Part shown: positions 7,059-28,294 of the stretch, one piece after another
Layout of the letters: each line of letters begins with the position of its first letter
How positions within the stretch are numbered: position 1 is the stretch's first letter
Origin: Acetobacter pasteurianus subsp. pasteurianus LMG 1262 = NBRC 106471
GTDB lineage: Bacteria > Pseudomonadota > Alphaproteobacteria > Acetobacterales > Acetobacteraceae
Direction of reading: 5' to 3'
NCBI RefSeq assembly: GCF_000285275.1
Contig: NZ_CADO01000139.1
Location: 62,001-126,000 of the forward strand
Length of the DNA stretch: 64,000 nt
Translations under genes and position numbers: made by a program
The notes under the pieces: generated by a model
What the model was told of the DNA's origin: nothing
The model's database searches: none
What the model saw: only the letters and a program-made list of their open reading frames with translations

Positions 7059-9932
7059 ATGGCGGTTTCGGACGTACTGGCAACCGCTCTTAACGGTGCC
7101 AATATCGCTTACCTTGCGGATCTGTATGCCCAGTGGGCGAAGGATCCCAAAAGTGTGGATCCGTCCTTCGATATTCTGTTCAGCTCACTGGGCGATGATG
7201 AAGCCGCAGTGCTGAAGGATGCCGTTGGAGCCTCTTGGGCACCACGCCCTTCCATTATCACGGGGGATGAACCCGCACCTGCTCCGAAAGGAAAAGGTGG
7301 CCCGGCTGGTGGGTTGGCCGCGCAGGATAGTCTGGCTATTGCCCGGCTGATCCGTGCGTATCGTGAATACGGCCATCTGGAAGCCTCACTTGATCCGCTG
7401 GGCCTGAAGGTGCCTCATAAAACCGAGGAACTGGACCCCGCCACATACGGTTTTGGTGAAAAAGACCTGAACCGCGAAGTGTTCATTGGGTCACTGCTTG
7501 ATCCGCTGCTCAAGGGCAAGAACACGGCCAAGGTTTCCGAGGTTATTGCGGCACTCCGCTCTGTGTATTGCGAAAGCATTGGCGCGGAATACATGTATGC
7601 CCGTAACCACGAACAGCGCGAATGGCTGCGCAAGCGGCTGGAAGGCGATAACTGGCGCGCCCACGTAACGGTGGAAGAGCAGAAGGTTATCTTGGCCAAC
7701 CTGACAGAAGCCGAAGGTTTTGAGGCTTTCTGCCAGAAGCGCTACGTGGGCGCGAAGCGTTTTGGTCTGGAAGGGGGCGAAATCTCCATTCCTTCCCTGC
7801 ACGCCATTATTGATTCCTGTGCCAGCCAGGGGGTGACATCTGTTGCCATCGGCATGGCGCATCGTGGCCGCTTGAACACGCTGGTTAACGTGGTGCGCAA
7901 GCCTTACGTGGCCATCTTTAACGAATTTGCTGGTGGTTCCTTCAAACCAGACAATGTTGAAGGTTCTGGCGACGTTAAATACCACCTTGGCTCCTCCACA
8001 GATGTGGATGTGGCAGGCAAGGCGGTGCATATCTCGCTCCAGCCCAACCCTTCTCATCTGGAAGCGGTGGATCCGGTTGTGTGCGGCAAGGTGCGCGCCA
8101 TTCAGGATGATGCGGGCGATACGGAAAAACGCCTGTCCAGCCTTGGCGTTATCATCCACGGTGATGCCGCGTTTGCCGGGCAGGGCATTGTTTACGAAAC
8201 CTTCGCCATGTCCCAACTGCCGGGCTACCGCACGGGTGGCACCATCCATATGGTGGTGAACAACCAGATTGGCTTTACCACCAATCCGGAATGTGGGCAT
8301 TCGGGCATTTATGGCACCGATGTTGCAAAATCCATTGAAGCCCCTGTGCTGCATGTAAACGGTGATGACGCCGAGGCGGTGATTTACGTCTCTCGCCTTG
8401 CTGCGGATTACCGTCAGGCTTTTGCAAGTGACATTGTGCTGGATATCGTTTGCTACCGTCGCCACGGGCATAACGAAACGGATGAGCCAGTTTTCACTCA
8501 GCCCGTCATGTATAAAGCCATTGCCGCGCATGATACGCCGCACACGCTTTATGCAAAACGCCTTGTAAAAGCAGGCGTTGTGACGGATGACGAAGTGAAG
8601 GCCCAGTGGGATGCCTTCCACGCCAAGCTGGATGAAGATTACAAGGCTGCCCAGTCTTACAAGGTGAACAAGGCAGACTGGCTGGAAGGTGGCTGGAAAG
8701 GCCTGGTGGCTGCCGGGCATGATCCGGAACGCGCCTTCCCCGAAACCGGTGTTGCACTGGATGCGCTGCGCAAGATTGGCGAAGCTATTACAAAAGTTCC
8801 AGAAGGCTTCAACCTGAATTCCAAAATTGCCCGCCAGCTCAAGGCCAAGGCAAACATGTTCAGCACGGGGGAAGGGTTTGACTGGGCAACCGGTGAGGCT
8901 CTGGGCTTTGGCTCCCTGTTGCTGGATGGCCACCGTGTGCGTCTTTCCGGCGAAGATTGCCAGCGTGGCACGTTCAGCCAGCGTCATGCCGTATGGACGG
9001 ATCAGGTTAACCAGACACCGTTTACGCCGCTGAACCATATTCAGGACAAGCAGGCGAAAATCGAAATCTGGAACTCGCTTCTTTCAGAATACGGCGTGGT
9101 TGGGTTTGAATACGGATATTCCGTGCGCAACCCGCAAACGCTGGTGCTGTGGGAAGCCCAGTTTGGTGATTTTGCCAACTGTGCGCAGGTAATTATCGAT
9201 CAGTTCATTGCCTCGGGTGAAACCAAGTGGCTGCGTATGTCCGGTTTGGTCATGCTGCTGCCGCATGGTTACGAAGGGCAGGGGCCGGAACATTCTTCTG
9301 CCCGTCTGGAACGTTATCTTCAGCTTTGTGCTGAAAATAACATGTTTGTTTGCAACATCACCACGCCCGCAAACTACTTCCACGCCCTGCGCCGCCAGCT
9401 CAAGCTGGATTACCGCAAGCCTATGATCCTGATGGAGCCTAAGTCTCTGCTGCGGCACAAACTTGCGGTTTCCGCTCTGGCAGATTTTGGTCCGGGCACA
9501 CGATTCAAACCCGTGATTGGCGAAATTGATGATCTGGGCGCCGATAACAAGGTGCGCCGCGTGGTGATCTGCTCTGGTAAGGTCTATTACGATCTGCTGG
9601 CCGAACGCCGGGAAAAAGGCATCAAGGATGTTGCCATCCTGCGTCTGGAACAACTCTACCCCTTCCCGGAAGCAGCCCTTGCCGCCGAACTTAAGCGCTA
9701 TCCTGAAGCAGACATTGTCTGGTGTCAGGAAGAAACGGAAAACGGCGGTGCATGGCATTTTGCAGACAGGCGGATTGAAGCAGCCCTTGCTGCCGCAGGC
9801 CATAAGGCAGGCCGCCCGCAATATGTGGGCCGCGCCGCAGCAGCCAGCCCGGCCACCGGCCTTGCCCGTATTCATGCGGCAGAGCAGGCGGATCTGGTTG
9901 AACGCGCATTGGGGCTGAAAAAGTCTGGCTGA
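7059..9932 (+). CDS. sucA: 2-oxoglutarate dehydrogenase E1 component
   Basis: Thiamine-diphosphate E1 enzyme that decarboxylates 2-oxoglutarate and passes the succinyl group to the E2 lipoyl arm. The 957-residue product matches E1o length. It begins with the short E1o helix (LNGANIAYLADLYAQWAKD) thought to bind E2/E3, and has GMAHRGRLNTL, the GDAAFAGQGIVYE cofactor region and MLLPHGYEGQGPEHSSAR. The start at 7059 follows AAGGAGG; an upstream in-frame ATG at 6918 has no comparable site. It heads sucA-sucB-lpd. No succinyl-CoA synthetase genes follow, unlike many Proteobacteria, which is consistent with (not proof of) the acetic-acid-bacterial use of a succinyl-CoA:acetate CoA-transferase. Confidence 0.97.
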   Translation: MAVSDVLATALNGANIAYLADLYAQWAKDPKSVDPSFDILFSSLGDDEAAVLKDAVGASWAPRPSIITGDEPAPAPKGKGGPAGGLAAQDSLAIARLIRAYREYGHLEASLDPLGLKVPHKTEELDPATYGFGEKDLNREVFIGSLLDPLLKGKNTAKVSEVIAALRSVYCESIGAEYMYARNHEQREWLRKRLEGDNWRAHVTVEEQKVILANLTEAEGFEAFCQKRYVGAKRFGLEGGEISIPSLHAIIDSCASQGVTSVAIGMAHRGRLNTLVNVVRKPYVAIFNEFAGGSFKPDNVEGSGDVKYHLGSSTDVDVAGKAVHISLQPNPSHLEAVDPVVCGKVRAIQDDAGDTEKRLSSLGVIIHGDAAFAGQGIVYETFAMSQLPGYRTGGTIHMVVNNQIGFTTNPECGHSGIYGTDVAKSIEAPVLHVNGDDAEAVIYVSRLAADYRQAFASDIVLDIVCYRRHGHNETDEPVFTQPVMYKAIAAHDTPHTLYAKRLVKAGVVTDDEVKAQWDAFHAKLDEDYKAAQSYKVNKADWLEGGWKGLVAAGHDPERAFPETGVALDALRKIGEAITKVPEGFNLNSKIARQLKAKANMFSTGEGFDWATGEALGFGSLLLDGHRVRLSGEDCQRGTFSQRHAVWTDQVNQTPFTPLNHIQDKQAKIEIWNSLLSEYGVVGFEYGYSVRNPQTLVLWEAQFGDFANCAQVIIDQFIASGETKWLRMSGLVMLLPHGYEGQGPEHSSARLERYLQLCAENNMFVCNITTPANYFHALRRQLKLDYRKPMILMEPKSLLRHKLAVSALADFGPGTRFKPVIGEIDDLGADNKVRRVVICSGKVYYDLLAERREKGIKDVAILRLEQLYPFPEAALAAELKRYPEADIVWCQEETENGGAWHFADRRIEAALAAAGHKAGRPQYVGRAAAASPATGLARIHAAEQADLVERALGLKKSG

Positions 9933-9960
9933 ACCGGATTAGGCTGAATTGAAGAAAATA

Positions 9961-10018
9961 GCCCGCAAATACGGGCGCACCCCGGTGCCACTGCCAAAAG
10001 TTTAAAGTGGCACCGGGG
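9961..10018 (+). promoter_or_regulatory. Two adjacent hairpins in the sucA-sucB intergenic region
   Basis: A 5-bp stem GCCCG/CGGGC (9961-9976) is followed by a perfect 13-bp stem, 9980-9992 (CCCCGGTGCCACT) with 10006-10018, around a 13-base loop. No U-run follows, so it is not a standard terminator. Placed 24 bases before the sucB start, it could stabilise sucA mRNA or tune sucB expression. The structure is seen directly; the role is inferred. Confidence 0.65.
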
Positions 10019-10042
10019 ATTTAAAAGAAGATGGGGAACAGG

Positions 10043-11284
10043 ATGTCTGTCGAGATCAAGGTGCCGACACTGGGTGAAAGCGTAACCACAGCAACCGTGG
10101 CCAAGTGGCTGAAGCAGCCGGGCGAAGCGGTGCAGGCAGATGAACCGATTGTTGAGCTGGAAACCGATAAGGTGAGCGTAGAAGTTTCTGCGCCGCAGGC
10201 TGGTATTCTGGGCCCACAGGCTGCCAAGGAAGACCAGGAAGTAGAAGTTGGCGCACTGCTGACCACGCTGGAACCTGCCAAGGCTGGCGCTGCACCAGCC
10301 GCCAAAGCCGCTGTCCCGGAAAAGAAAGCAGAACCCGTAGCGGCTGCTGCTCCGGCAAAAGCAGCTGCACCAGCACCTAAGGCCGCAGCCCCTGCTCCGG
10401 CAGTAGATGCCGGTGCTGCTCTGCCCGCAGCCCGCAAGATGATGGCTGAAAACGGCCTGAGCGCACAGCAGCTTGCAGGCACCGGCCTTGGTGGCCGTAT
10501 TACCAAAGGGGATGTGCTGGGCTTTTTGGCCAACCCGCAGGCTGCAACACCAGCCGCAGCCCCTAAGCCGCCGCGTAATGATGACCCGCGTGAAGAACGC
10601 GTGAAGATGACGCGCCTGCGCCGCACCATTGCCCGCCGCCTGAAGGAAGCACAGAACACGGCGGCCATGCTGACAACGTTTAATGAAATCGACATGTCCG
10701 GCGCCATGGCGCTGCGTGCCGAATATCAGGACTCGTTTGTTAAAAAGCACGGTGTCAAGCTGGGCTATATGTCCATCTTCTCCCGCGCTGTTGTGGCAGC
10801 CCTGAAAGAATTCCCGGCCATTAACGCAGAAATTGACGGTGATGATGTCATCTACCGTGATTTCGTAAACCTCGGCATTGCCGTGGGTGGGCCAAACGGG
10901 CTGGTGGTGCCGGTTATCCGTGATGCCGACAAGATGAGCTATGCCGAAATTGAAAAAACCATTGCAGGTTTTGGCAAGGCAGCGCGTGAAGGCACGTTGA
11001 AGCTGGATCAGCTTTCTGGCGGCACCTTCTCCATCACCAATGGCGGTATTTACGGCTCTCTGCTGTCCACCCCCATCCTGAATGCACCGCAGTCCGGTAT
11101 TCTGGGCATGCACTCCATTCAGGAACGCCCGGTGGCAGTGAACGGGCAGGTGGTGATCCGCCCGATGATGTATATTGCCCTTTCTTATGATCACCGCATT
11201 GTAGATGGCAAGGAAGCCGTCAGCTTCCTTGTGCGGGTGAAGCAGAACGTAGAAGACCCGCGCCGCCTTCTGATTGAAGTCTGA
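10043..11284 (+). CDS. sucB: 2-oxoglutarate dehydrogenase E2 (dihydrolipoyllysine succinyltransferase)
   Basis: Core subunit of the 2-oxoglutarate dehydrogenase complex; transfers succinyl from the lipoyl arm to CoA. The 413-residue product has one lipoyl domain (residues 1-75) with the lipoylated lysine at K43 in ETDKVS, an Ala/Pro-rich linker (about 80-130), a peripheral subunit-binding domain ([18 protein letters not shown]), and the catalytic domain ending in [13 protein letters not shown] with the catalytic HxxxDG. The start at 10043 ([10 protein letters not shown]) matches the family; an ATG at 10031 would add four residues. It sits between sucA and lpd, flanked on both sides by hairpins. 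Confidence 0.97.
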
Positions 11285-11332: not shown

Positions 11333-11364
11333 CTGCATATCCCTACGTGAGCGAGACGAGACCC

Positions 11365-13083
11365 ATGCCTATTGAAATTAAAGTTCCCACACTTGGAGAA
11401 AGCGTTACGACCGCCACGGTGGGGAAGTGGCTGAAGCAGCCGGGTGAAGCTGTAAAAGTAGATGAACCAGTTGTTGAGCTGGAAACAGATAAAGTCAGCG
11501 TGGAAGTGCCTGCTCCGGCATCTGGCCGGCTTGAAAATCATGCCGTTAAAGAAGGTGATGAAGTAGAAGTTGGCGCTGTGCTGGCTACGCTGGAAGCCGG
11601 TGCTGCTGGTTCTGCCCCCGCTGCAAAAGCTGCACCTGCTGCCAAGGCAGAAGAAGCCAAACCAGCCGCCGCACCAGCACAGCAGGCTCCGGCAGAAACA
11701 GATTACGATGTGGTGGTGATTGGTGCTGGCCCCGGTGGGTATGTGTGCGCCATTCGTGCTGCACAGCTTGGCTTTAAAGTGGCATGTGTTGAACAGCGTG
11801 CAACGCTTGGTGGCACCTGCCTGAATGTGGGTTGTATTCCGTCCAAGGCGCTGCTTCAGTCTTCCGAAAACTATCATGCAGCCGGGCACGATTTTGCCGC
11901 GCATGGTGTGGTGATTGATAGCGTAAAGCTGGATCTGGCCCGTATGCAGGCCCGTAAGGCAGATATTGTGGGCGCCAACGTGAAGGGCGTGGAATATCTG
12001 TTCAAGAAGAATGGCATCACCTGGCTGAAAGGCCACGGTAAGGTGGAAGGCACAGGCCGCCTGAGCGTGGATGGCAAGCCGGTAACTGCCAAGCACATTG
12101 TTATTGCCAGCGGCAGCAACAGTGCCAACCTGCCGGGCATTGAAATAGATGAAAAAGTTATTGTCACCTCTACCGGTGCGCTGGAACTTTCCGAAGTGCC
12201 CAAGCGCCTTGTGGTGATTGGTGGCGGCGTAATTGGTCTGGAACTTGGCAGCGTATGGGGCCGTCTGGGTGCCGACGTAACCGTTGTTGAATTCCTCGAT
12301 CGTCTGGTGCCGGGTACGGATAACGAAGTGGCCTCGCAGTTCCAGAAACTGCTGGTGAAGCAGGGCTTCAAGATGAAGCTGGGCCATAAGGTCACCAAAG
12401 CCGAAAAAACCAAAAAAGGCGTGGTGCTGACGGTTGAACCTTCAGCCGGTGGTGCTGCCGAAACGCTTGAGGCCGATGTGGTTCTGGTTGCTGTAGGCCG
12501 CACGGCTGCCAGCAAGAACATGGGTCTGGAAGAAGCCGGTATTGCGCTGGATAAGCGTGGCCGTGTTGAGGTGGATGCCCATTACACCACCAGCGTGCCG
12601 GGCATTTACGCCATTGGCGATGTGATTGCAGGCCCCATGCTGGCCCACAAGGCAGAAGAAGAAGGCGTGGCCTTGGCAGAACTGCTGGCTGGTCAGGCTG
12701 GGCATGTGAATTACGATGCCATTCCGGGTGTGATTTACACATGGCCGGAAGTTGCTTCCGTTGGCTTTACGGAAGAGCAGCTTAAAGACAAGGGCGTGGC
12801 TTACAAAATCGGCAAGTTCCCCTTCATGGCCAATGGTCGTGCCCGCGCTTTGGGCATGACGGATGGCTTTGTAAAGGTGCTGGCAGATAAGCAGACAGAC
12901 CGCGTTCTGGGTGTGCACATTATTGGTCCATGTGCTGGCGAACTGATTGCTGAAGCCACAATGGCCATTGAATTTGGGGCCTCTGCCGAAGATATCGGCC
13001 GCGTGTGCCACGCACATCCAACCCTGAGTGAAGCCGTGAAGGAAGCCGCGCTGGGTGCTGACAACCGCGCGATCAACATCTGA
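11365..13083 (+). CDS. lpd: Dihydrolipoyl dehydrogenase (E3) with N-terminal lipoyl domain
   Basis: FAD disulfide oxidoreductase that reoxidises the lipoyl arm with NAD. The 572-residue product is about 100 residues longer than ordinary E3 because it carries a lipoyl domain (residues 1-75, lysine K43 in ETDKVS) and an Ala-rich linker. The E3 body follows: FAD site [10 protein letters not shown], redox disulfide [16 protein letters not shown]-binding [14 protein letters not shown] and the C-terminal HAHPTLSEA base. The lipoyl domain is almost the same as that of the neighbouring sucB product. The start at 11365 ([13 protein letters not shown]) was chosen over a GTG at 11347. It is the last gene of the suc operon. 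Confidence 0.95.
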
Positions 13084-18596: not shown

Positions 18597-19322
18597 TCAG
18601 AACGTATCTTTTTCGCGGCGCAGTTGGGCAAAGGCTTGCACGTTCTGCGCGCGTAAAAAGGGGTTGGTGGCGCGTTCCATTTCCAATGTGGAAGGCACGG
18701 TGGGTTTGTTTTCTGCCTGCAGGCGGCGCACTTCGGCCACACGTTCCTTCAGGGCCGCATTATGTGGCTCTGCATGCAGGGCAAAGGCGCTGTTGCCCAA
18801 CGTATATTCGTGTCCGCAATATACACGCGTTGCATCTGGCAGCGTATCCAGCTTGTGCAGGCTTTCAAACATCTGTTCGGCAGTGCCCTCAAACAGTCGG
18901 CCACAGCCAAGGCTGAAAAGCGTATCTCCACAAAATAGAGAGGGCGGGTTGGGGAAGTCATAGCAAATATGCCCCAGCGTGTGGCCCGGCACAGCAATAA
19001 CAGTGCCTATGCATGCCCCTACGGCAATGCTGTCTTGGTCATGCAGTGCAATATCCAGTGGTGGCATACGCTGTTGTTCGGCGGCTGGGCCAGCCACACG
19101 GGCATGATAGCGCTGGCGCAGCGCTTCTGCGCCGCCGGTGTGGTCATGGTGATGGTGTGTGAGCAAAATCAGATCCAGCCGCCCGCCTTCCTTTTCAATA
19201 AAGTCGGCAACGGGTGTGGCCTCTCCGGGGTCTACTACTGCGGTTGTGCCTGTTTCCGTATCACGCAGAAACCACGCGTAATTGTCGGATAGAACGGGAA
19301 TGGCCTGAACATCCAAAGGCAT
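18597..19322 (-). CDS. gloB: Hydroxyacylglutathione hydrolase (glyoxalase II)
   Basis: Zinc metallohydrolase that releases lactate and glutathione from lactoylglutathione in methylglyoxal detoxification. The 241-residue product has the metallo-beta-lactamase-fold motif THHHHDH (residues 55-61), VPGHTLGHI, the FCGDTLFSLGCGRLFEG segment and YCGHEYT, all typical of glyoxalase II rather than of general hydrolases. The start at 19322 (MPLDVQAIPVLSDNY) matches the family. It is divergent from the methyltransferase gene at 19406, a pairing common in Alphaproteobacteria, with 83 bases between them. Confidence 0.95.
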   Translation of the reverse strand: MPLDVQAIPVLSDNYAWFLRDTETGTTAVVDPGEATPVADFIEKEGGRLDLILLTHHHHDHTGGAEALRQRYHARVAGPAAEQQRMPPLDIALHDQDSIAVGACIGTVIAVPGHTLGHICYDFPNPPSLFCGDTLFSLGCGRLFEGTAEQMFESLHKLDTLPDATRVYCGHEYTLGNSAFALHAEPHNAALKERVAEVRRLQAENKPTVPSTLEMERATNPFLRAQNVQAFAQLRREKDTF

Positions 19323-19405: not shown

Positions 19406-20179
19406 ATGCTCGATGTCATGCCGCCGGAAAGCAGTTTTTACACAACAGCAAGAGGCCAGTGTTTTCTGGCTCTGGTTGGTGAACGCCTGCGCTGGTTCTG
19501 GCCAGATCTGGGGCAGCAGCACGCCGTGCTGGGTTTGGGGCATGCCGCTGCGTATCTGGAAAAGCTGGAGAGCGGTAAAAACACACCAGCCTGTTTGGTT
19601 GCAGCCAATGCGCCGCAATGGGGCGCGGCACCTCCTTTAGGCAGAAGCTGTGTGGTGGATATGCACAGCCTGCCGTTTCAGCCCGAGCAGTTTGACCGCG
19701 TGCTGATGGTGCACGCACTGGATGATCGCAAACAATCAGTGTCTGTTCTGCGGGCTGCCGGGCAGGTGATGAAGCCCGATGGCAGGTTGCTGTTAATTGT
19801 GCCTAGCCGTTTTGGTGGTCGGGCACGGTTGCAGGGCACGCCATTTAGGCACGATGCGGCTTTTTCGCGCCGATGTCTCAGGCAAATGCTGGCTGCGGCC
19901 ATGCTCAAGCCAGAACAGTGGGATGAAGCCTTTTTTCTGCCCACGGGTGCCATGCGCTGGATGCGCCATAACGGGCGAAAAATGGATATTGCGGGCAAGG
20001 TGCTATGCCCCGGCGCCGGTAGCTTGATACTGGTGGAAGCGGTGCGGGATGAGTATTCAGCACTCTCTCTCCCAGTAAGGCTGCGGCAGCGTTGGCTTTC
20101 CCGTTCCCTGTTGCCGGTAAGGGGCACCGCAAAGGCGATACAGGACAGAAAATACGTTTCACGCATTTCGCGGCGCTGA
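19406..20179 (+). CDS. Class I SAM-dependent methyltransferase-like protein
   Basis: A 257-residue protein with a methyltransferase fold: the glycine-rich AVLGLGHAAAYLEKL replaces the usual ExGxGxG motif I, VVDMHSLPFQPEQFDRVLMVHALD matches the D-x-x-x-L-P-F region, and AAGQVMKPDGRLLLIVP matches the post-II strand typical of the methyltransferase 11 family. Substrate unknown. It is divergent from gloB and 24 bases upstream of the hydrogenase-like cluster. Motif I is weak, so the cofactor-binding capacity is less certain than the fold. Confidence 0.78.
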   Translation: MLDVMPPESSFYTTARGQCFLALVGERLRWFWPDLGQQHAVLGLGHAAAYLEKLESGKNTPACLVAANAPQWGAAPPLGRSCVVDMHSLPFQPEQFDRVLMVHALDDRKQSVSVLRAAGQVMKPDGRLLLIVPSRFGGRARLQGTPFRHDAAFSRRCLRQMLAAAMLKPEQWDEAFFLPTGAMRWMRHNGRKMDIAGKVLCPGAGSLILVEAVRDEYSALSLPVRLRQRWLSRSLLPVRGTAKAIQDRKYVSRISRR

Positions 20180-20203: not shown

Positions 20204-21937
20204 ATGGTGTTATCCGCCGGATTTCATAGCAGGTTGGGGCCGGGTTCCATTTTCACCTCCTTTGTTCTTTGCAGTTTGCTGGCAATATTTGCTGCGCTGG
20301 GCGTTTTTGCAGTGCTGCCAGACAGGCTTCTGCGCGGCGCTGCGGTTTGGCGGGCAGAAATTATGGGTGGCCTGTGGGCGCTTTCTGGCGTGCTGGCCAT
20401 TGTGGGGGCTGCGTGCAAGCTGGAGGGGGAGCTTAGCTGGTTTCCGGTTTTTGGGCTGGATGGCCCGGCCTTGCCCATGCTTGTTTTGCTGGCGTTTGCC
20501 GGTGGCGTAGCCGGTAGTGGTGCTGCGGCACTGGCCTGCGTGTTTGTGGGTGTGGGCTTTCTGGCCCTTTCGCCTCTTGTTTTCGGGTTGCTTACTGGCA
20601 CGGCATTGGTGCTTCTGGCCGCAGGTGGGTGGCGCAGTGTGTGCCTGCCATTTGCCGTGCTGCCAGCCTGTATTCCCGCAGATAGCCCGTTTTGTGTGCC
20701 GCTTTTGTGCCTGACAGTGCTGCTGATGGGCTGGGCGGTTTCTGTGCAAAAAGGGCCTACGGCTGTGCTGCCCGGCATGGTGGGGCTGTTTTTGCTGGGG
20801 CGTCTGTTGGCAGAGGTGGGTGAACTTTCCGTGCTGCCGCAGGTCATGCTGGTGGCAAGCGGCTGTTTGGTGGCGGCAACAGGCACTCTGCAAGCCATGC
20901 GGGATAAGGGGCTGGCACGTATTGCATCCGGCCTGTGTGCTGCGTGGTATGGCATATTGGTGGTGGCTGTTGCGCTGGCTCTGGTTTCCAGCTTTGGCGG
21001 TATGGAAACATTCCGTATGGCCATTATTCTGGGTATGGGCGCGCCCATGCTGGCCCTTATTGGTTTGCTATGGCTGGCCCAATGGCAGCAGGCAGAACCC
21101 AAGCGCCGCATTGCCTCTCTTTCCGGGCATGTGCTGGTTGCGGGTTTGTTAATGCTGTTTTCCATTATGCCGCCATTTGGCGGGTTTGCTGTTTTATGGA
21201 GCCTGCTTGTTGGCGCGTATGATGCCATTGCCGTGGCGCAACCCGTGGGCGCATTAACCATAATGCTGCTGCTTACGCTGCTGGGCAGCATTATGGTGCT
21301 TATGGGGGCAGGGTTGCTGCGGGCTGGTGCTGCACTGCTGTTTCCTTCCACCGTTTTTCAGCCGCATCAGGCCCCTGTGGCGGCTGAGTTTGTGTGGCCA
21401 AGCTGGATATGTGCCGGAGCGGCCCTGTTGCTTGTGTTGTTGCCGGGGGTATGGCTTTCGCTGGCAGATCATCTGGTGGTCGGGCCTGTTGTGCCGCCGC
21501 TCAAGTGGAACCGCATTGCCACAATCTGGCTGGAAGGCGGAGGAGCCAGCTTTACGCCTGTTTTTACACTGTTGGCATTGGGCGCGGCTTTGGCCGCTGC
21601 CGCCCTGTTGGTGCGGCTGCTGGGCTTTCTGCCTTTTGGGCGTGTTATCAAGCCAGTGCCAGTGTGGCGCCAAGGTGCTCCTATCATCCAGCCTGCTGAA
21701 GGCCATACGGTTTCTTACGAAGGTGCTGCCCCTTTATGGCCCGCCTGCATGGCGCTTTTTGGGCTTGCAACAGAAACCCGAAAGGACAGAAGGCTGGCCC
21801 GCCGTGGCCGCGTGACCCTGCGCTATGGCAGGCGCTGGTTGTTCCGAGGGGCCGAATGGTGTGAAACACAGGGCCTTGTGCTGATTCTGCTGCTTTTGGG
21901 TGGTGGCCTGCTTGTGGGGCTGTTTGTAGGAAAATGA
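20204..21937 (+). CDS. HyfB-like antiporter-type membrane subunit of a hydrogenase-related complex
   Basis: A 577-residue, strongly hydrophobic protein with about 14-15 predicted membrane segments, shorter than HyfB (about 670). It is assigned from topology, its place at the head of a hyfBCEFGI-like order, and the family segment MPPFGGFAVLWSLL, which matches LPPxNGFxSEW of complex I and Mrp antiporter subunits. By eye, charged residues used for proton transfer are missing: the TM5 FWE position reads VFG, and the TM8 NHALFK position reads GAPMLAL. The start at 20204 lacks a clear ribosome site. It overlaps the next gene by 4 bases (ATGA). Inferred role: membrane arm of a complex, possibly without ion pumping. 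Confidence 0.72.
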   Translation: MVLSAGFHSRLGPGSIFTSFVLCSLLAIFAALGVFAVLPDRLLRGAAVWRAEIMGGLWALSGVLAIVGAACKLEGELSWFPVFGLDGPALPMLVLLAFAGGVAGSGAAALACVFVGVGFLALSPLVFGLLTGTALVLLAAGGWRSVCLPFAVLPACIPADSPFCVPLLCLTVLLMGWAVSVQKGPTAVLPGMVGLFLLGRLLAEVGELSVLPQVMLVASGCLVAATGTLQAMRDKGLARIASGLCAAWYGILVVAVALALVSSFGGMETFRMAIILGMGAPMLALIGLLWLAQWQQAEPKRRIASLSGHVLVAGLLMLFSIMPPFGGFAVLWSLLVGAYDAIAVAQPVGALTIMLLLTLLGSIMVLMGAGLLRAGAALLFPSTVFQPHQAPVAAEFVWPSWICAGAALLLVLLPGVWLSLADHLVVGPVVPPLKWNRIATIWLEGGGASFTPVFTLLALGAALAAAALLVRLLGFLPFGRVIKPVPVWRQGAPIIQPAEGHTVSYEGAAPLWPACMALFGLATETRKDRRLARRGRVTLRYGRRWLFRGAEWCETQGLVLILLLLGGGLLVGLFVGK

Positions 21938-22950
21938 AGCAGGATTTGACATGGGGCTGGGCGTTTGGCTGCGTTGCGGCTCTGGCTATTCAGGCGGCCC
22001 TTATGGTGCTGGTGGCGCCGTGGTTTGCTGGGTGGGTGCATCGTCTTGCCGGCCGATTGGTAGGTGAACCGCGCTTTCCCGCAGGGGGGAGATGGCAGGA
22101 AATCTGGCATCAGTTTCGCCGTCCTTCACTATACGGGCGGCAAGATGGGCTGAATGGCGTTTTTTGTGCCTTGGCGTTGGTGCTGGCGGTGTTAGCCTGT
22201 GGGCTGGTGCCTGTATTTACACTCACTATGCCGGGCTTTCCTGCGCCGGGTATGCTGCTTGTGTGCACCATTCTGGTGGCCGTAGGTGTTTTGCTGGATC
22301 TGCCTCAGGCTGTGCAGGAGGCCTCTGCCGCACAACAAGGGTGCGCGGCCATTGTAGCAGATGCGTTGCTATTGCCCGTATTAACCCCCGTGCTGTTGCT
22401 AACCGGAGCGCATGATCTGGTGGCCTTTCTGGGCAGGCTGCATGTGCTTTCTCCCATTACAGAAGGTGCGCCTTATGTTCTGGCAGGTGTGGCGCTGTTT
22501 TTGGCAACGGCCTTGGCAAGGCGGGATGAGCAAACAGCCTCTGCCACACTTTCTGGCCCGGATAGAGCCATGTGGCTTTTGGCCGCAGATTGCATGCAGA
22601 TGTGCTGGGTTACGCTGGCGGCAGATGTGGCATGGGCAGGCAGCTTGGCCATGCCGGGAGAAAGCGGGGCGGAAAACTGGCTGACCCAATGTGTGGAAGG
22701 CTTGGGCCTGTGGATGTTCAAGCTGCTTGTGGCATCCCTTATGCTGGCGGTGTTGCGTATGGCGTTGCTGCCAGCCGGGCGCAGGGCACGGGTGCGGCTG
22801 GGAGCCATTTTTCTGCTGGGCGTTCTGGCATGGCAGGTCACGTCTTCTCACGTTGCTGCTCCACCCGCGGAGCCGGAAAACCACAACGTGGAGGATGAAA
22901 ACACCCAAGGCTATTCCACAGAGCCAGCGCCAGAAGGAGAACCTTCATGA
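21934..22950 (+). CDS. HyfC/NuoH-like membrane subunit
   Basis: A 338-residue hydrophobic protein with about 8 membrane segments and a hydrophilic, Glu/Asn-rich C-terminal tail (from about residue 305). Length and position between the HyfB-like and HyfE-like genes match HyfC (about 320), the NuoH-type subunit connecting the membrane arm to the peripheral arm. The acidic loop motif expected after TM5 (ExGRxPVDxP and later LELT) is not preserved; the region reads LARRDEQTASATLSGPDRAMWLLAAD. Assignment rests on context, so the degenerate motif matters. Start and stop both overlap the neighbouring genes by 4 bases. Confidence 0.65.
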   Translation: MKQDLTWGWAFGCVAALAIQAALMVLVAPWFAGWVHRLAGRLVGEPRFPAGGRWQEIWHQFRRPSLYGRQDGLNGVFCALALVLAVLACGLVPVFTLTMPGFPAPGMLLVCTILVAVGVLLDLPQAVQEASAAQQGCAAIVADALLLPVLTPVLLLTGAHDLVAFLGRLHVLSPITEGAPYVLAGVALFLATALARRDEQTASATLSGPDRAMWLLAADCMQMCWVTLAADVAWAGSLAMPGESGAENWLTQCVEGLGLWMFKLLVASLMLAVLRMALLPAGRRARVRLGAIFLLGVLAWQVTSSHVAAPPAEPENHNVEDENTQGYSTEPAPEGEPS

Positions 22951-23537
22951 CACTGGCTGCCATTCTTATGCCCTTGCTGGCACTGTGCGTTGTGGCGCGC
23001 GGTATCGGGTTTTTGCCTTTGTTGGGCTTGGTTGCAGCCGCCGCCATGTTGGTGGATGGGCATACGCCTTTGCAACAGGCCGGGGCAGCTATGGCCGTGG
23101 TGTTTGCCATCGGGCCGGTTTTGTTTTTGCTACGCTATCAGCATGATGCCGCGCGGGAACGTACGGGAAGTGCCATACCGTTTTTTGCACTGGGGCTGAT
23201 GGTGTTGCTGCTTTTGGCCTGCACGCGCGCAGGTGTTGCGGTGTTTCCTGCCAGTTTATGCGTGGTTGTGGCAGGTCTGGTTTCTGTTATCTGCCGGCAA
23301 AGCATGGTGTGGCAGTGGGCCGGCTTGCTCACCTGCGTTGAAGGTGTGCTGCTGTGCGGCGTGCAGGCGTTTCAGCCCTCTGTGGTGGGTGTGGCTGGGC
23401 TGGCCGGTGCAGTTGTGGCCGTACTTGGGGGCATGTGTATTCACCGTATTATGCCGCGCGTGGTGCCGTTGCGCCCACCTTCTGCACGTAAAAAATCTTC
23501 TCCCGACTCTCCAGAAAAGAACGGAGATGCAGCATGA
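22947..23537 (+). CDS. HyfE/NuoK-like small membrane subunit
   Basis: A 196-residue protein with about 6 membrane segments and a basic, Ser/Pro-rich C-terminus. It has no sharp signature, but size (HyfE about 216) and its place between HyfC-like and HyfF-like genes support a NuoK/MrpC-like subunit. The family Glu residues in the membrane helices are not obvious: ALGLMVLLLLACTRAGVAVF has none. Both ends overlap neighbours by 4 bases, so production is tightly coupled. Confidence 0.6.
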   Translation: MTLAAILMPLLALCVVARGIGFLPLLGLVAAAAMLVDGHTPLQQAGAAMAVVFAIGPVLFLLRYQHDAARERTGSAIPFFALGLMVLLLLACTRAGVAVFPASLCVVVAGLVSVICRQSMVWQWAGLLTCVEGVLLCGVQAFQPSVVGVAGLAGAVVAVLGGMCIHRIMPRVVPLRPPSARKKSSPDSPEKNGDAA

Positions 23538-24667
23538 CAGGCACAGCAGGGGCAGGCATGTTTCTGGCGGCACTGGCATTTGTGTGGCCCTTTTTGGGGG
23601 CAGCAGCCGTATGTGCGGTGCCTGTGGCGCGCAGCCGTGAGCTGGCAATATGGATGTCCGCCATAGGCTGCGTTCTGGCGCTGGCAGTTTTTGTGTTTCC
23701 CGCATCGGGCGCAGTGGCCGCTGGGTGGGATGATGACCCCGTACAGCGTGCCGGGCGTGTGATGCTGGCTTTTGGCCTGCTATTGATGGTGCTTGAAAAC
23801 GGCATCCTGCATGACAGGCTGGTGCGTAGCCTGCCGCATGTTTCCACTGCTTTGGCGGGGCTTGCCTGTATTGCGCCAGACCCTGCTGTGGGTTTGGGTA
23901 TTCTGGAAGCGGCTCTGGCGTGGGGTGTGTTTGTTTTTACCCGCCCAGCCGGGCAGGCCAGAATGGGGTGGGGGCTTATTCGCAATGGCTCGGTTGGCAC
24001 ATTTTTGGTGCTTTCCGGCCTGCTATTGCCAGCTAACACCGTTGTTTCTGGCTTGCTGATGGCCTGTGGTTTGGTTGTGCTTACCGGACTTTCTCCGTTT
24101 GGGCAGTTCTGGCAGGATGAAAACGATACCTTCCTGTTTCTGCCTTTTGCCGGGGCGGCTTTGCTGCTGGCCATGCGCCTGCGCACGCATGGGGGCGAGG
24201 CGTTTGAAACAGCTCTTGTGCTGTGTGGCCTGCTTTCTGTGTGGCTTACCGCCTGTGCTGGGCGCTTTCCAGACAGGCAAAGGCTGTTCCGCACCTTTCC
24301 ATCCGCACTGGCGCTAATAGCCGTTGGTATTCAGGCCGATGTGGCGGCTTTGCTGTTTTTATGCGGCTGGTGCCTTGCTGGTGGTGGGCGTGCGGGCCGT
24401 GGCTGGGCTGTTAACACCTTGGCGTGTTTTCCACCCGGCGCACCGTTTGTGGGGTGCCTGCTTCTGCTTTCCATGATGAGCGATTGGTCATGGCCGTTGG
24501 CGCTGCTGACGGTTGCGGGCATTTTGGCAGCGGTTACGCGGGCTGTGCCTGCGCGGGATATTACGCATCACTTCTGGCCGCAGGATGCTGCCGGGCGTGT
24601 GGCCTGTTCCGTGCTGACAGCAACGGGCCTGCTGGTGCCACTGGCCATGATGCTGGGAGCTTTCTGA
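23534..24667 (+). CDS. HyfF-like antiporter-type membrane subunit, shortened
   Basis: A 377-residue membrane protein with about 10-11 helices; HyfF is about 526 residues, so it is clearly short. SALALIAVGIQADVAALLFLCGWCLAGG lies where antiporter subunits have the sequence around HALFKxLLFL, but without His or Lys. TGLSPFGQFWQDEN resembles the FHxWLPxAH turn. As in the HyfB-like subunit, the pumping lysines appear lost. One base separates its stop from the next start. Assignment is from context and topology. Confidence 0.62.
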   Translation: MTGTAGAGMFLAALAFVWPFLGAAAVCAVPVARSRELAIWMSAIGCVLALAVFVFPASGAVAAGWDDDPVQRAGRVMLAFGLLLMVLENGILHDRLVRSLPHVSTALAGLACIAPDPAVGLGILEAALAWGVFVFTRPAGQARMGWGLIRNGSVGTFLVLSGLLLPANTVVSGLLMACGLVVLTGLSPFGQFWQDENDTFLFLPFAGAALLLAMRLRTHGGEAFETALVLCGLLSVWLTACAGRFPDRQRLFRTFPSALALIAVGIQADVAALLFLCGWCLAGGGRAGRGWAVNTLACFPPGAPFVGCLLLLSMMSDWSWPLALLTVAGILAAVTRAVPARDITHHFWPQDAAGRVACSVLTATGLLVPLAMMLGAF

Positions 24668-24668
24668 T

Positions 24669-26165
24669 ATGAATGCAGCTTCTCATATCTGGGCGGGTGA
24701 AGAAACGGAAACCCCGTGGCGCTTTAGGCTGCAGGAAATGGCATGGCGTGATCTGGTAGATGCGCTCAAGCATGATGATCTGCCATTTGTAGGCCTGTGG
24801 TGCGATGGCACAGATGTGCATGCGCTGTTTCTGCCTGATGGCCAGCCATTGGCGGCCACGTTGGCGCTGGAAGATGGCCGATACCCCGCACTGTCCCCCG
24901 CAAGAGATATTTCCTGCCTGTATGAACGCCGCATTTATGATCTGTATGGCGCAGAAGGCATGTGGGCGACCGATGTAAGGCCCTTGCTGGACCATGATGT
25001 ATGGTCATCCTCAACACCTTTGGCGGAGCATCCGGGTGCAGGGGGGGGGCAAAAAGGACTTATCCATTTCCAGCCCGCCGAGCATATGCCCCAAGAGGGT
25101 GATATGGCAGATGGCTGGGGCCCAGCCACAGGCGGTATGGAACCCCCCTTGCATGTGGCGCTGGCCATGCAAGAAGGGCGTATTCGCGCAGCGGAAACCG
25201 TAACCGGTTATGCGCACAGAGGCATGGAACTGCGCTGGCGCAATAGCCGTGTGGAAGATGCCTGCAAACTTAGTGCACGTGTGGCGGCTGGGCAATCTGT
25301 AGCGCATCAGGTGGCGTTTTGCTTGGCTGTGGAAGATGCATGCAAGGAGCAGGTAGGCCCGGAAATCCGTCTGCTACGTGTTGCGTTGTTGGAACTGGAA
25401 CGTATTTGCCATCATCTTTTTCTGCTGGCGGATATGGCGCGTCTGGCCGGGGCACGGTTGGTTGCTTCTGGCTGCATGGGGTTACGTGAAAAGCTGTTAC
25501 AGGAAGCCGCACCTATTACCGGTTCACGCCTGTTGATGGATGTCTGCGTGCCCGGTGGCCTCTCCCTGCGTCATGCGACGCAAATGGGCGATATGTGCGG
25601 TCGCCTGTGTGAAGTGGCAGAGCGTGACTATCCGGCCTTGCTAGCCTTGTGGCAGGAATATCCGGGCCTTTCCATGCAGTTGGCAGGCATAGGTAAGGTT
25701 ACAGCAGATTTGCTGGAGCGTGTGGGGCTGGATGGCCCCACAGCACGTGCCGCCGGGTGGGATTGTGATGGCCGCCGCATGATGCCGGGTTATGAAGGCA
25801 TATGGCGCTTTACCTCTGGCAGGCAGGACGGCACGGCGGAAGACCGCGCCATGCTTTTGCTGGAAGAAGTGGGCGAAAGCCTGCGTATGCTGGATGAAGT
25901 GGCATCTCGCATCGGGCTGACAGCAGGCGGCAGTGTGCAGCTTTCCATGCAGGATAGTGAAGGCACAGGCATGGTGGAAGGCCCGTGGGGCGGTATTCTG
26001 TACTGGGTGCGTCTAAAAGAGGGGCGGGTGGAACAGGTGTTTGCCCGCAATCCATCTTCTGCTGCTTTGTTAACGTTTGAGGCCATATTGCCGGGGCATC
26101 AGCCAGATGATGTTGCCTTGCTTGCACGATCATTGGATATCAACGCAGCCGCGCTGGATCAGTAA
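24669..26165 (+). CDS. HyfG/NuoCD-like large subunit lacking NiFe ligand cysteines
   Basis: A 498-residue soluble subunit. Residues 1-110 are NuoC-like (ERRIYDLYGAEGMW) and 155-498 are NuoD/hydrogenase large-subunit-like: GPATGGMEPPLHVALAMQEGRI, TGYAHRGMELRWRN, LLELERICHHL. In group 4 hydrogenases the active site is held by RxCGxC near here and DPCxxC at the end. Here they read RVAAGQS (204-210; A206 and Q209 at the cysteine positions) and SLDINAAALDQ (N492 and A495). All four ligands are gone, so a NiFe site is not possible in the usual way. A run of nine G residues lies at 25041-25049. Inference: an energy-converting hydrogenase-related (Ehr-type) complex with another redox partner. Confidence 0.8.
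   Translation: MNAASHIWAGEETETPWRFRLQEMAWRDLVDALKHDDLPFVGLWCDGTDVHALFLPDGQPLAATLALEDGRYPALSPARDISCLYERRIYDLYGAEGMWATDVRPLLDHDVWSSSTPLAEHPGAGGGQKGLIHFQPAEHMPQEGDMADGWGPATGGMEPPLHVALAMQEGRIRAAETVTGYAHRGMELRWRNSRVEDACKLSARVAAGQSVAHQVAFCLAVEDACKEQVGPEIRLLRVALLELERICHHLFLLADMARLAGARLVASGCMGLREKLLQEAAPITGSRLLMDVCVPGGLSLRHATQMGDMCGRLCEVAERDYPALLALWQEYPGLSMQLAGIGKVTADLLERVGLDGPTARAAGWDCDGRRMMPGYEGIWRFTSGRQDGTAEDRAMLLLEEVGESLRMLDEVASRIGLTAGGSVQLSMQDSEGTGMVEGPWGGILYWVRLKEGRVEQVFARNPSSAALLTFEAILPGHQPDDVALLARSLDINAAALDQ
25041..25049 (+). repeat. Run of nine G residues inside the large-subunit gene
   Basis: An uninterrupted G9 tract codes for part of a Gly-rich stretch (GAGGGQKG, about residues 123-130) between the NuoC-like and NuoD-like parts. 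The frame is intact here. Slipped-strand change of one G would cut the protein before its catalytic part, so the tract is a possible on/off site or a sequencing-error hotspot. Confidence 0.85.
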
Positions 26166-26200
26166 GCAGTGCAGGCGGGCGGAATGAAAGGCAAAAACAC

Positions 26201-26698
26201 ATGGGGCTGATACGCGCGGTATTTGATGCAGCCTTCAAGCAGGACATGCGGCGCATGAAGCCCGTAGGCCCACGCTGGCCGCTGCTTCTGTTCCATGTTG
26301 ATACAGGCGGCTGTGGCGGCTGCGGAATGGAACTTCAGGCCCTGCGATATGCGCCATACGATATGGAAGGCGCAGGTTTTGGCTTTGTAACATCGCCCCG
26401 CAATGCCGATGTGTTGCTGATAACGGGTGCGCTTACTCGTGCCATGGCCCCGGTGCTGGAAGCCGCATGGCAGGCCATGCCAACCCCCAAAGGGCTGATT
26501 GCCGTAGGAAGCTGCGCCTTGGATGGCGGCATGTTTCCTGAAAATTATACGGTATTGGGTGGGCTGGAGCGCCGGGTTTCCATAGATTTGAAAATACCCG
26601 GCTGCCCGCCTGCGCCTCAGGATGTTTTAAACGGCCTGTGTTCCCTGTTTGGCAAACAGGCCGTTCCCCCAAAGGAAGCTGAAACCTCAGCCGTGTGA
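26201..26698 (+). CDS. HyfI/NuoB-like iron-sulfur small subunit
   Basis: A 165-residue subunit with the complete proximal [4Fe-4S] ligand set: DTGGCGGCGMELQAL (C38 and C41), VGSCALDGG (C105) and KIPGCPPAPQDVL (C135). It is shorter than HyfI but close to NuoB size, and is preceded by a 35-base gap, the widest in the cluster. Its retained cluster, next to a large subunit without NiFe cysteines, makes it complex I-like in cofactor content. No HyfH-like ferredoxin or formate dehydrogenase gene is nearby, so the electron donor is unknown. Its 3' end overlaps pssA by 12 bases, tail to tail. Confidence 0.85.
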   Translation: MGLIRAVFDAAFKQDMRRMKPVGPRWPLLLFHVDTGGCGGCGMELQALRYAPYDMEGAGFGFVTSPRNADVLLITGALTRAMAPVLEAAWQAMPTPKGLIAVGSCALDGGMFPENYTVLGGLERRVSIDLKIPGCPPAPQDVLNGLCSLFGKQAVPPKEAETSAV

Positions 26699-27592
26699 AG
26701 GTGCTGGGGTTTCTTCTATGTCGTCTTCATCGGTTTGTAGGTCTTCTGCCGCTTTTTTAAGCCGTAGAAAGCTCAGGCGGCTAAGGGGCAGAAGAAAAAC
26801 GTAAATCACGCCCGCAGCGGCCAAAGCGGCCCACGGGTCTGCCACCAGCACTACAGCATACAGCCCCGTGCCCAGCATAAGGGGCAGAACATACTGGGCA
26901 GGCACCTTGAAGTTTTTGAACGACCAGACCGGCAAAGTAGAAACCAGCAGCAGCCCTGTACTTGCCAAGGTGAGCGTGGGAATCCACGGTAGGCGTGTTA
27001 GCCGATAAAGCCAGTCTATCCCCAGCTTTTGTGCTTCCAGCCCCAAAAAGAGAGGGAAAAGAGCCAGCCCGGCACCTGCAGGTGCGGGCACACCGGTAAA
27101 GAAGTTGCTGGCATATTTGGGCTGATGATGTTCACCATCCAGATTGGCGTTAAAGCGTGCCAGCCGGAGCGCCATGCACACGGTAAACATAATGCACGGC
27201 AAAAAGGCATACCGCCCGCCATCCTTCAATGCCCAGAAATACAGCAGAAAGGAAGGCGCTACCCCAAAGCACAAAAAGTCCGACAGGCTGTCAAACTCAG
27301 CGCCAAAGCGGGTGGAACCGCGTAGCAGCCGGGCGATACGGCCATCCAGCCCATCAATAAAAGCGGAAATCAGCAAGGCCACGGCAGCGGCCTGAAAACG
27401 CCCGTCCACCGCAAAACGCATGCCCATAAGGCCACCGCAAAGCCCCAACATGGTGAGAATATTGGGAATGAGCCGGTTAAAGGATGGCCCACGTATTTTG
27501 CTGCGGACCCGCCGCCGCAAACGGCGACGACGGCGCGGTGTTTCGGAAGTCTGCTGCGCAGGAGCAGAAGGAGATGAGGAAGGTTGTGTCAC
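26687..27592 (-). CDS. pssA: CDP-diacylglycerol-serine O-phosphatidyltransferase
   Basis: Makes phosphatidylserine from CDP-diacylglycerol and serine in the inner membrane. The 301-residue product has an Arg-rich N-terminus and the CDP-alcohol phosphotransferase signature DGLDGRIAR...G...D...D (D80 to D105), in a family of about 8 membrane helices. It lies immediately after psd (12-base gap), so phosphatidylserine is made and decarboxylated by adjacent genes. The last 12 bases overlap the convergent hyfI-like gene. Confidence 0.95.
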   Translation of the reverse strand: MTQPSSSPSAPAQQTSETPRRRRRLRRRVRSKIRGPSFNRLIPNILTMLGLCGGLMGMRFAVDGRFQAAAVALLISAFIDGLDGRIARLLRGSTRFGAEFDSLSDFLCFGVAPSFLLYFWALKDGGRYAFLPCIMFTVCMALRLARFNANLDGEHHQPKYASNFFTGVPAPAGAGLALFPLFLGLEAQKLGIDWLYRLTRLPWIPTLTLASTGLLLVSTLPVWSFKNFKVPAQYVLPLMLGTGLYAVVLVADPWAALAAAGVIYVFLLPLSRLSFLRLKKAAEDLQTDEDDIEETPAPSHG

Positions 27593-27604: not shown

Positions 27605-28294
27605 TTACAACCGCGCCATGACGGTTTCACCGCCTACCATTGTCTGCCCGACAGAAACCAGAGGTTCCACACCCGGCGGCAGATACAGATCAGTGCGGGA
27701 GCCAAAGCGGATAATGCCAAAGCGTTCACCAGCTTCCACCTTGTCGCCTTCCTTTACGGAGCAGACAATGCGGCGTGCCACCAGCCCGGCAATCTGCACC
27801 ACAGCCATCATGCGGCCATCGGGCAGGGTAAGGCTGAGGGCATTGCGTTCATTCTGTTCGGAAGCCTTGTCCAAGCTGGCGTTCAGGAACAGGCCGGGGT
27901 GATAGGCCACCCGCGTAACTGTGCCAGCGGCAGGCATGCGGTTAACATGCACATCCAGCACGGAAAGGAAGGTGGCAATGCGCCATACCGGTGCTGTGCC
28001 CATATCCAGTTCTGCTGGCGGGGCTACCTTTTCGATAGAAACAATGTGTCCATCAGCCGGGGCCACAGCCACATCGTTACGGGCGGGGGTGACGCGTTCC
28101 GGATCACGGAAGAAATACAGGCAGAAGCCAAAAAAGCCTGCGCTGGCATGGCCCACATTGCGCAATACCGGGCAGCGCAGTTTACGGCCAGCCCAGTAGG
28201 CCAAAGCAGCCGTGGCACCAGATGCCAGAAGGAAAGGGCGCGCTTCCCGGTGCGGGCGCGCAACAACAAGTTTTAGCGAAGCAAGTAGCGACAT
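27605..28294 (-). CDS. psd: Phosphatidylserine decarboxylase
   Basis: Decarboxylates phosphatidylserine to phosphatidylethanolamine, using a pyruvoyl group made by self-cleavage. The 229-residue product is of the short alphaproteobacterial type: [48 protein letters not shown], and the cleavage site [11 protein letters not shown] with G198-S199. An N-terminal hydrophobic stretch (about 20-70) is consistent with membrane attachment. It is followed by pssA. Confidence 0.95.

Follow-up and report, generated by a model that had tools for sequence, protein, structure and literature searches.

What can a hydrogenase-like membrane complex do when both the site that holds its catalytic metals and the residues through which its relatives move protons appear to have been lost? 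The question is raised by an intact operon of six genes, hyfB-C-E-F-G-I, situated at positions 20204-26698 of a 64,000-nucleotide stretch of DNA from Acetobacter pasteurianus subsp. pasteurianus LMG 1262 = NBRC 106471. The whole stretch is called "the window" below, and every open reading frame (ORF) of the operon is on its plus strand. Judged from the sequences, there is about an even chance that the product, a relative of the Hyq complex of Azorhizobium within the complex I / group 4 hydrogenase superfamily, is a [4Fe-4S] redox complex that is anchored in the membrane but does not pump. The losses and retentions of residues, the clustering of the affected loci on one branch, purifying selection and occurrence without NuoD or HypD were observed directly.

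The metal site of the large subunit

The large subunit gene, hyfG (24669-26165, plus strand), encodes a 498-residue protein of the fused NuoC+NuoD type, recognised by family and PDB matches. It scores against NuoD and hydrogenase family models, and matches NuoD chains and formate hydrogenlyase (FHL) subunit 5 (7z0s_E, E 8.9e-17), the latter being the best PDB match. When aligned with FHL subunit 5 and MbhL, the motif RVCGIC is found to read RVAAGQ, giving A206 and Q209. The C-terminal SLDPCYSC position reads SLDINAAA, giving N492 and A495; the printed alignment ends at SLDP, and CYSC is what we take the end of FHL subunit 5 to be. An earlier note on this DNA had placed the same four residues at the cysteine positions of the nickel-iron (NiFe) site, and the alignment with FHL subunit 5 and MbhL agrees. 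Among the loci L004-L033, more than one of the four ligand cysteines is present in none (0/30); a single one occurs at the second site in L006 and L008 and at the first site in L009 and L018.

The earlier note had left room for cysteines hidden by a frame error or for a second, intact large-subunit gene. A frame error is ruled out, as the cysteine-less pattern is identical across species. A search of the genome with PF00346 found only NuoD and the HyfG gene of the window, and PF00374, the NiFe large-subunit family, gave no match, so no second large subunit was seen with either model. HypD (PF01924), the Hyp protein that was searched for, is absent from the same genome, with a positive control in E. 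coli. The complex is thus not a NiFe hydrogenase, because the genome has neither a large-subunit gene of this kind besides NuoD nor HypD.

Identity of the membrane subunits

Four genes precede hyfG on the plus strand: a hyfB-like gene for an antiporter-fold subunit (20204-21937, 577 residues), a hyfC-like gene for a NuoH-like subunit (21934-22950, 338 residues), a hyfE-like gene (22947-23537, 196 residues) and a hyfF-like gene for a second antiporter-fold subunit (23534-24667, 377 residues). The B/C, C/E and E/F junctions overlap by four bases. Family scanning was applied to 17 proteins of the window, and the products of these four genes had no Pfam or NCBIfam match at E 0.1. Their identity rests on gene order, on iterated profiles and, for HyfF and weakly for HyfB, on the predicted fold.

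The order B-C-E-F-G-I recurs in 24 of 25 named loci (14 of Acetobacter, two of them metagenome-assembled genomes, and 11 of Gluconacetobacter, including G. diazotrophicus PA1 5), showing that it is not due to chance; the exception, L114, starts inside F at a contig end. The closest named relative in HyfG is Acetobacter pomorum LHT 2458, with 95% identity. The six coupled genes described in the earlier note are thereby borne out by the ORFs and their overlaps, and the survey of relatives that it proposed returned the same gene order.

Starting from the window proteins, iterated profiles reach HyfB, HyfC and HyfE of other Acetobacteraceae. An iterated hidden Markov model links the HyfB of the window to the canonical HyfB of L051, L058 and L065, and that of L051 is called Proton_antipo_M by Pfam. 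The profile seeded with the window HyfF stays within close relatives at the inclusion limit. In a search restricted to the frame beside G, a profile built from Rhizobium, Azospirillum and Methylovirgula HyfF reaches the HyfF of the window. The HyfF model (pLDDT, the predicted local distance difference test, 69) matches NuoN, NuoM and NuoL of complex I with query template modelling (TM) scores of 0.53-0.72 among the 50 matches listed. The HyfB model (mean pLDDT 63) is matched weakly in the PDB, by complex I and by HycC of FHL (E 1.7e-4 at best), with query TM scores of 0.33-0.50 against the same fold family; it is too poor to serve as a sole argument.

In two loci, L035 (6484-7686) and L037 (10280-11488), HyfE is extended at its C-terminus by a long tail rich in acidic residues and proline, giving total lengths of 400 and 402 residues, respectively, as against 196 in the window.

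Loss of proton-path residues

Sites on the proton path were scored in the numbering of Rhizobium johnstonii: E143, K223, H344, H348, K352 and E407 of HyfB, with a Thr column, and E139, K163, K228, H343, K347 and E402 of HyfF, with H235. In the Hyq-type rows of the alignment these sites are complete in 21/22 HyfB sequences (L146 is truncated, and two more rows stop before HyfB) and in all 24 HyfF sequences. They are also complete in both subunits in five rows from the Acetobacteraceae, L051, L056, L058, L059 and L065; L063, in which HyfF alone was read, has two changed sites. A group of 34 rows from 18 genera, here called the lost rows, keeps at most two of seven sites in HyfB or HyfF; HyfB could be read in 25 of them and HyfF in 31. 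Since the 40 family loci in which residues were read were chosen by hand or for their top scores against the window protein, the proportion of 34 lost to 6 intact is no family-wide estimate.

The window and 23 named rows, all of Acetobacter and Gluconacetobacter and taken after exclusion of two contig-end loci, have none of the six sites in HyfF and none of five in HyfB, and a lysine at the sixth, K223, in four rows. The HyfF of the window is 377 residues long, compared with 487 in R. johnstonii, and contains no lysine at all. L069 keeps E143 of HyfB and E139 and H235 of HyfF, and the fragment L070 keeps H343 and K347 of HyfF.

The loss extends beyond the scored sites. The charged positions that are invariant in Hyq are kept in the lost rows at fractions of 0.21 in HyfB, 0.18 in HyfF, 0.18 in HyfC and 0.17 in HyfE, so that the four membrane subunits have lost about 80% of their conserved charged positions on the Acetobacteraceae branch. 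The corresponding fractions are 0.62 in HyfG and 0.42 in HyfI, and the Gly, Pro and Trp positions of the membrane subunits drop less (0.36-0.42 retained). The window itself keeps 2/22 of these charged positions in HyfC, 3/14 in HyfE and 6/25 in HyfF. Counts of Lys, Asp and Glu in the hydrophobic cores, made without any alignment, also drop (in HyfF, for example, from 3.54 to 2.27 per 100), and because the ranges overlap the case for loss of the pump rests on the aligned residues. That case amounts to a strong inference from sequence, and the lost residues would mean that the complex does not pump.

The possibility that membrane cysteines form a new cofactor site was also considered. Several are invariant in Acetobacter, at frequencies not above expectation (p 0.10, 0.65, 0.73 and 0.11 for B, C, E and F), and the idea was dropped.

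The iron-sulfur cysteines and the HyfG pocket

The small subunit gene, hyfI (26201-26698, plus strand, 165 residues), was identified by PDB match and cysteines. Its best PDB match is FHL subunit 7 (E 2.6e-30), and C38, C41, C105 and C135 align with the four [4Fe-4S] cluster cysteines of that protein, as the earlier note had claimed. These cysteines are retained at 1.00 (32/32 lost rows), and the spacing of the CxxC motif equals that of FHL subunit 7 at the level of the sequence.

The HyfG pocket is partly preserved. Its residues were compared with those of FHL, whose roles are taken from PMC9474812; this and the other papers cited are used for what the accessible part of their text states. H284, R395 and E437, which belong to the route to the cytosol in HycE, correspond to H249, R360 and E400 in the window, and their equivalents are kept in 30, 32 and 30 of the 34 lost rows. 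The catalytic loop has its His in 0/33 lost rows, and not in the window either (T154), and its Glu in 5/34. The site of the quinone Tyr of complex I is A207. The equivalent of D139 of Nqo4 (Nuo-D139 below), a position assigned by counting in the PDB alignment of HyfG, is present in 1/33 lost rows besides the window, where it is L259.

HyqG sequences of eight genera have been described in which both CxxC motifs are missing and three other cysteines are conserved, C258, C491 and C497 in Azorhizobium caulinodans (PMC3357923, 2012). The corresponding columns of R. johnstonii HyqG are 259, 491 and 497, where column 259 would equal A. caulinodans C258, and they hold A, L and I in the window. This triad is absent in 26/26 rows (the window and 25 named loci); its retention over the 34 lost rows is 0.03, and in no lost row is it complete. 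L069 (genome G147) and L070 (G065), near the base of the lost group, keep C491, and L070 also C497. They are possible intermediates, with the pump residues mostly gone; L070 is a contig fragment.

Distribution and phylogeny

A HyfG profile matches 252 of 299 Acetobacteraceae genomes at E 1e-62 or better (217 of the 250 good ones; 87 of 102 genera), a few matches lying within a factor of 100 of this cut-off. Of 385 genomes searched at the level of the class, 31 from outside the family reach E 1e-80 or better by a count made by hand; five of the matches listed there are family members, and NuoD scores near 1e-50 in this search. In the 27 loci read from other families of the class, no CxxC occurs at either of the NiFe sites, and most of them have a Cys one residue ahead of the third site. 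The same pattern is found in R. johnstonii 3841 (plasmid pRL11), Azospirillum thermophilum, Methylovirgula and Rhizobium NLR16a. Cupriavidus metallidurans CH34 has no Cys there.

In a tree of 64 HyfG sequences, a single branch with support of 100/99 separates the 34 lost rows from all others, and this branch is present in 100% of 200 bootstrap trees. The labels lost and intact were derived from HyfB and HyfF residues only. L052, L061 and L040 have long branches, and the midpoint root serves for drawing only; we infer a single loss on condition that the root falls within the Hyq rows.

The complex is independent of HypD and of complex I, because it is found without HypD and without NuoD. HypD occurs in 53 of the 299 family genomes, compared with 252 for the large subunit; by a cross-count that assumes the same 299 genomes, it is present in the genomes of 6/34 lost and 1/6 intact loci. 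Twelve genomes were picked by hand for apparent absence of NuoD. Eleven of them have a single PF00346 match, in a frame of 486-542 residues as expected for HyfG, and no NuoD; the twelfth, G218, has NuoD as well as HyfG. That the complex is an accessory to complex I is consequently unlikely, since 11/12 of the picked genomes carry the operon without another PF00346 match. In the A. pasteurianus genome itself a separate nuo operon lies on contig 75, with genes assigned by eye and NuoD by PF00346.

Selection on the six genes

Between the window and genome G169, the ratio of nonsynonymous to synonymous substitution rates (dN/dS) is 0.039 for B, 0.022 for C, 0.011 for E, 0.013 for F, 0.031 for G and 0.036 for I, compared with 0.021 for alaS and 0.040 for psd. 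There is thus no decay within Acetobacter, all six genes lying at 0.011-0.039 between two close species. B and C evolve faster than alaS at larger distances. HyfF of L035 and L037 is 93% identical at a synonymous distance (dS) of 0.86. No in-frame stops were found inside any of the matches listed. Decay to pseudogenes is disfavoured by these ratios and by the open frames. Outside Acetobacter the constraint is weaker but present.

Function of the complex

On the Acetobacteraceae branch of 18 genera, the catalytic metal site and pumping may both have been given up, while selection keeps a non-pumping [4Fe-4S] device that would have taken on a new redox or sensing role in the cytosol and would need neither complex I nor hydrogenase maturation; we would give this proposal one chance in two. 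The complex probably serves a job not known for the complex I family. The six subunits would assemble and be redox-active: a cytosolic donor or acceptor would exchange electrons with the HyfI cluster at the HyfG pocket, where the residues for a proton route to the cytosol are still present (H249, E400 and R360). Such a reaction would be scalar, with no coupling to pumping, since the loop His, the Nuo-D139 equivalent, the charges of HyfC and HyfE and the antiporter Glu, Lys and His residues are mostly gone. The membrane subunits would keep the role of a scaffold that holds the redox unit in the membrane. If this is true, the complex should give a [4Fe-4S] signal and show neither H2 chemistry nor movement of ions.

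Several points weigh against this proposal. The alignments of HyfB and HyfF are uncertain at this divergence: E139 of HyfF is Glu in the window in two alignments and Gly in another, the E143 column of HyfB is gapped in most lost rows, and K223 varies between alignments. Some charged residues persist in the hydrophobic cores. The canopy Arg of the pocket (R460 in the window) is kept in just 19/34 lost rows. No redox partner was found, so the argument for electron transfer draws on the cluster cysteines and pocket residues alone, and no biochemical or expression evidence for the complex was found. In L045 and L046, from another genus, dN/dS of C, G and I is 0.25-0.28, exceeding pssA (0.12) and psd (0.07), so that constraint is weaker in places.

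A proton path rerouted as in HycC of FHL (PMC9474812) would also speak against the proposal, and leads to a reading for which the odds are rather low, namely that the complex pumps protons or sodium through other residues with some redox reaction as driver, as an ordinary energy-converting hydrogenase-related (Ehr) type with rewired paths. HycC shows that such paths can be rerouted, the HyfF model has the antiporter fold, some charges persist in the cores, and within Acetobacter the four membrane subunits are all retained under constraint. However, the conserved charges have mostly been lost in the four membrane subunits together, along with the loop His and the Nuo-D139 equivalent, and the window HyfF is without lysine. 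About equally improbable is a pseudoenzyme, a structural or sensory membrane platform without turnover, which might for example use the cluster to register the redox state. As expected of such a platform, residues for catalysis and for coupling are both gone, and the set of subunits, the cysteines of the cluster and purifying selection persist; but the cytosol-route residues H249, R360 and E400 are kept, although they may be structural, and no regulator or partner gene was recognised beside the operon.

Two further readings are given very little credence. Strong divergence of the membrane subunits from genus to genus, the 47 family genomes out of 299 without a match at the chosen cut-off and the raised dN/dS in L045 and L046 could all point to a relict in decay that is still present. 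Such a relict would hardly show dN/dS in the range of alaS and psd for all six genes, matches free of internal stops in those listed, or the near-identity of HyfF between L035 and L037 at that dS. H2 chemistry without NiFe, as proposed for the Hyq of Azorhizobium, appears just as improbable. Deletion of the cysteine-less hyq alters H2 evolution in A. caulinodans (PMC3357923), but the HyqG triad is missing from all 26 rows and complete in no lost row, and HypD is confined to 53/299 family genomes.

The coupling of the soluble to the membrane arm is a central open question for complex I. A non-pumping redox complex in the Acetobacteraceae would bear on it, for most of the coupling route, and the residues for pumping in all four membrane subunits, appear to have been removed here in evolution, whereas the Fe-S cysteines, the full set of subunits and the antiporter fold (seen for HyfF) persist. 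The Hyq complexes that keep these residues and those of the Acetobacteraceae form a natural before-and-after pair. The operon points to a conserved function in acetic acid bacteria.

Gene neighbourhood

A gene resembling class I S-adenosylmethionine-dependent methyltransferases (19406-20179, plus strand; Pfam Methyltransf_11, E 4.6e-06) lies 24 bp upstream of hyfB and is co-directional with it. It adjoins the operon in many relatives and lies beyond pssA/psd in loci of other genera; it is probably not part of the complex. Beside it is a gene recognised as gloB (18597-19322, minus strand). About 7 kb upstream of the operon, at 11347-13083, is a gene whose product resembles dihydrolipoamide dehydrogenase and has a lipoyl domain at its N-terminus.

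Downstream, pssA (26687-27592) and psd (27605-28294), both on the minus strand and named by eye, are convergent with the operon, and the end of hyfI overlaps the pssA ORF by 12 bp. Homologues of pssA/psd (blastp E 1e-8) lie in the fetched stretch of 25 of the 34 pump-less loci; at the same threshold none was found in the six intact family loci or in 20 class-level stretches, some of which are short. These genes belong to phosphatidylethanolamine synthesis, and the neighbourhood is conserved in the window and 24 other pump-less loci. The linkage could be simple vertical inheritance.

Comparison with known complexes

With FHL and hydrogenases 3 and 4 (Hyd-3, Hyd-4) the complex shares the best PDB matches of HyfG and HyfI, FHL subunits 5 and 7, and the proximal [4Fe-4S] cysteines. 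It differs from them in that the NiFe cysteines are missing, HypD is missing from the genome, and no HyfA/HyfH-type gene was found inside the operon. The antiporter fold of HyfF and the NuoB/C/D-like soluble subunits recall complex I; however, family matches found no NuoE/F/G/I-like gene, and hence no NADH module, among the six operon genes, the quinone Tyr is replaced by A207, and a nuo operon lies elsewhere in the genome. The MBS/Mbx complex of Pyrococcus, a NiFe-less relative in which the [4Fe-4S] cluster itself is catalytic (PMC7684303), provides a precedent for chemistry without NiFe. MBS differs in having a shortened loop, three-Cys ligation and ion-pumping membrane modules, whereas the window has, by its sequence, the CxxC spacing of the hydrogenases.

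The Ehr complexes are group 4 hydrogenase relatives without Ni/Fe ligands, suspected of ion translocation because of their antiporter-like subunits (PMC6349859). The window likewise has group 4-like subunits without these ligands, and antiporter-like subunits as well, but the conserved proton-path residues of the latter are lost. The Ehr class was reportedly defined by Marreiros et al. in 2013. The Ehr-type assignment made in the earlier note therefore stands in part: the missing NiFe site, the retained Fe-S cysteines and the kinship to group 4 are upheld, whereas the loss of the proton path and the closer resemblance to Hyq tell against it.

The nearest described complex is the Hyq of Azorhizobium and relatives. 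In A. caulinodans, hyqRBCEFGI is described as encoding a NiFe endo-hydrogenase under the control of NifA (PMC2650096); this operon is known to us from papers, and the operons compared here are records from Rhizobium, Azospirillum and Methylovirgula. In these records cysteine-less HyqG is encoded in L104 at 8959-10473 (R. johnstonii 3841, pRL11), in L105 at 8935-10500 and in L107 at 8953-10470, and is labelled "NADH-quinone oxidoreductase subunit C" or "nickel-dependent hydrogenase large subunit". Labels such as "hydrogenase 4" and "nickel-dependent hydrogenase" on the cysteine-less relatives of Azospirillum and of Rhizobium plasmids mislead surveys of hydrogenases. For the complex of acetic acid bacteria, or for the loss of its pump residues, no paper was found among the titles and abstracts listed, of which few were from subscription journals.

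The window operon and Hyq have the six structural genes in the same order, a fused NuoC+NuoD large subunit without NiFe cysteines, four Fe-S cysteines in HyqI or its counterpart, and an operon free of ferredoxin-type and NADH-module genes, and the HyfG sequences of both share one tree. A helix-turn-helix gene opens three of the four annotated plasmid operons compared, the two of Rhizobium and that of Methylovirgula, which thus resemble the published hyqRBCEFGI, while the window operon follows the methyltransferase-like gene; the Azospirillum record has no regulator gene ahead of hyfB-C-E-F-G-I. Both the proton-path residues of B and F and the Cys triad of HyqG are present in the Hyq rows, whereas the window keeps no Cys of the triad and no proton-path residue save one Glu of HyfF in some alignments. 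A cysteine-less hydrogenase-like complex is as such not new, but the Acetobacteraceae branch has lost more.

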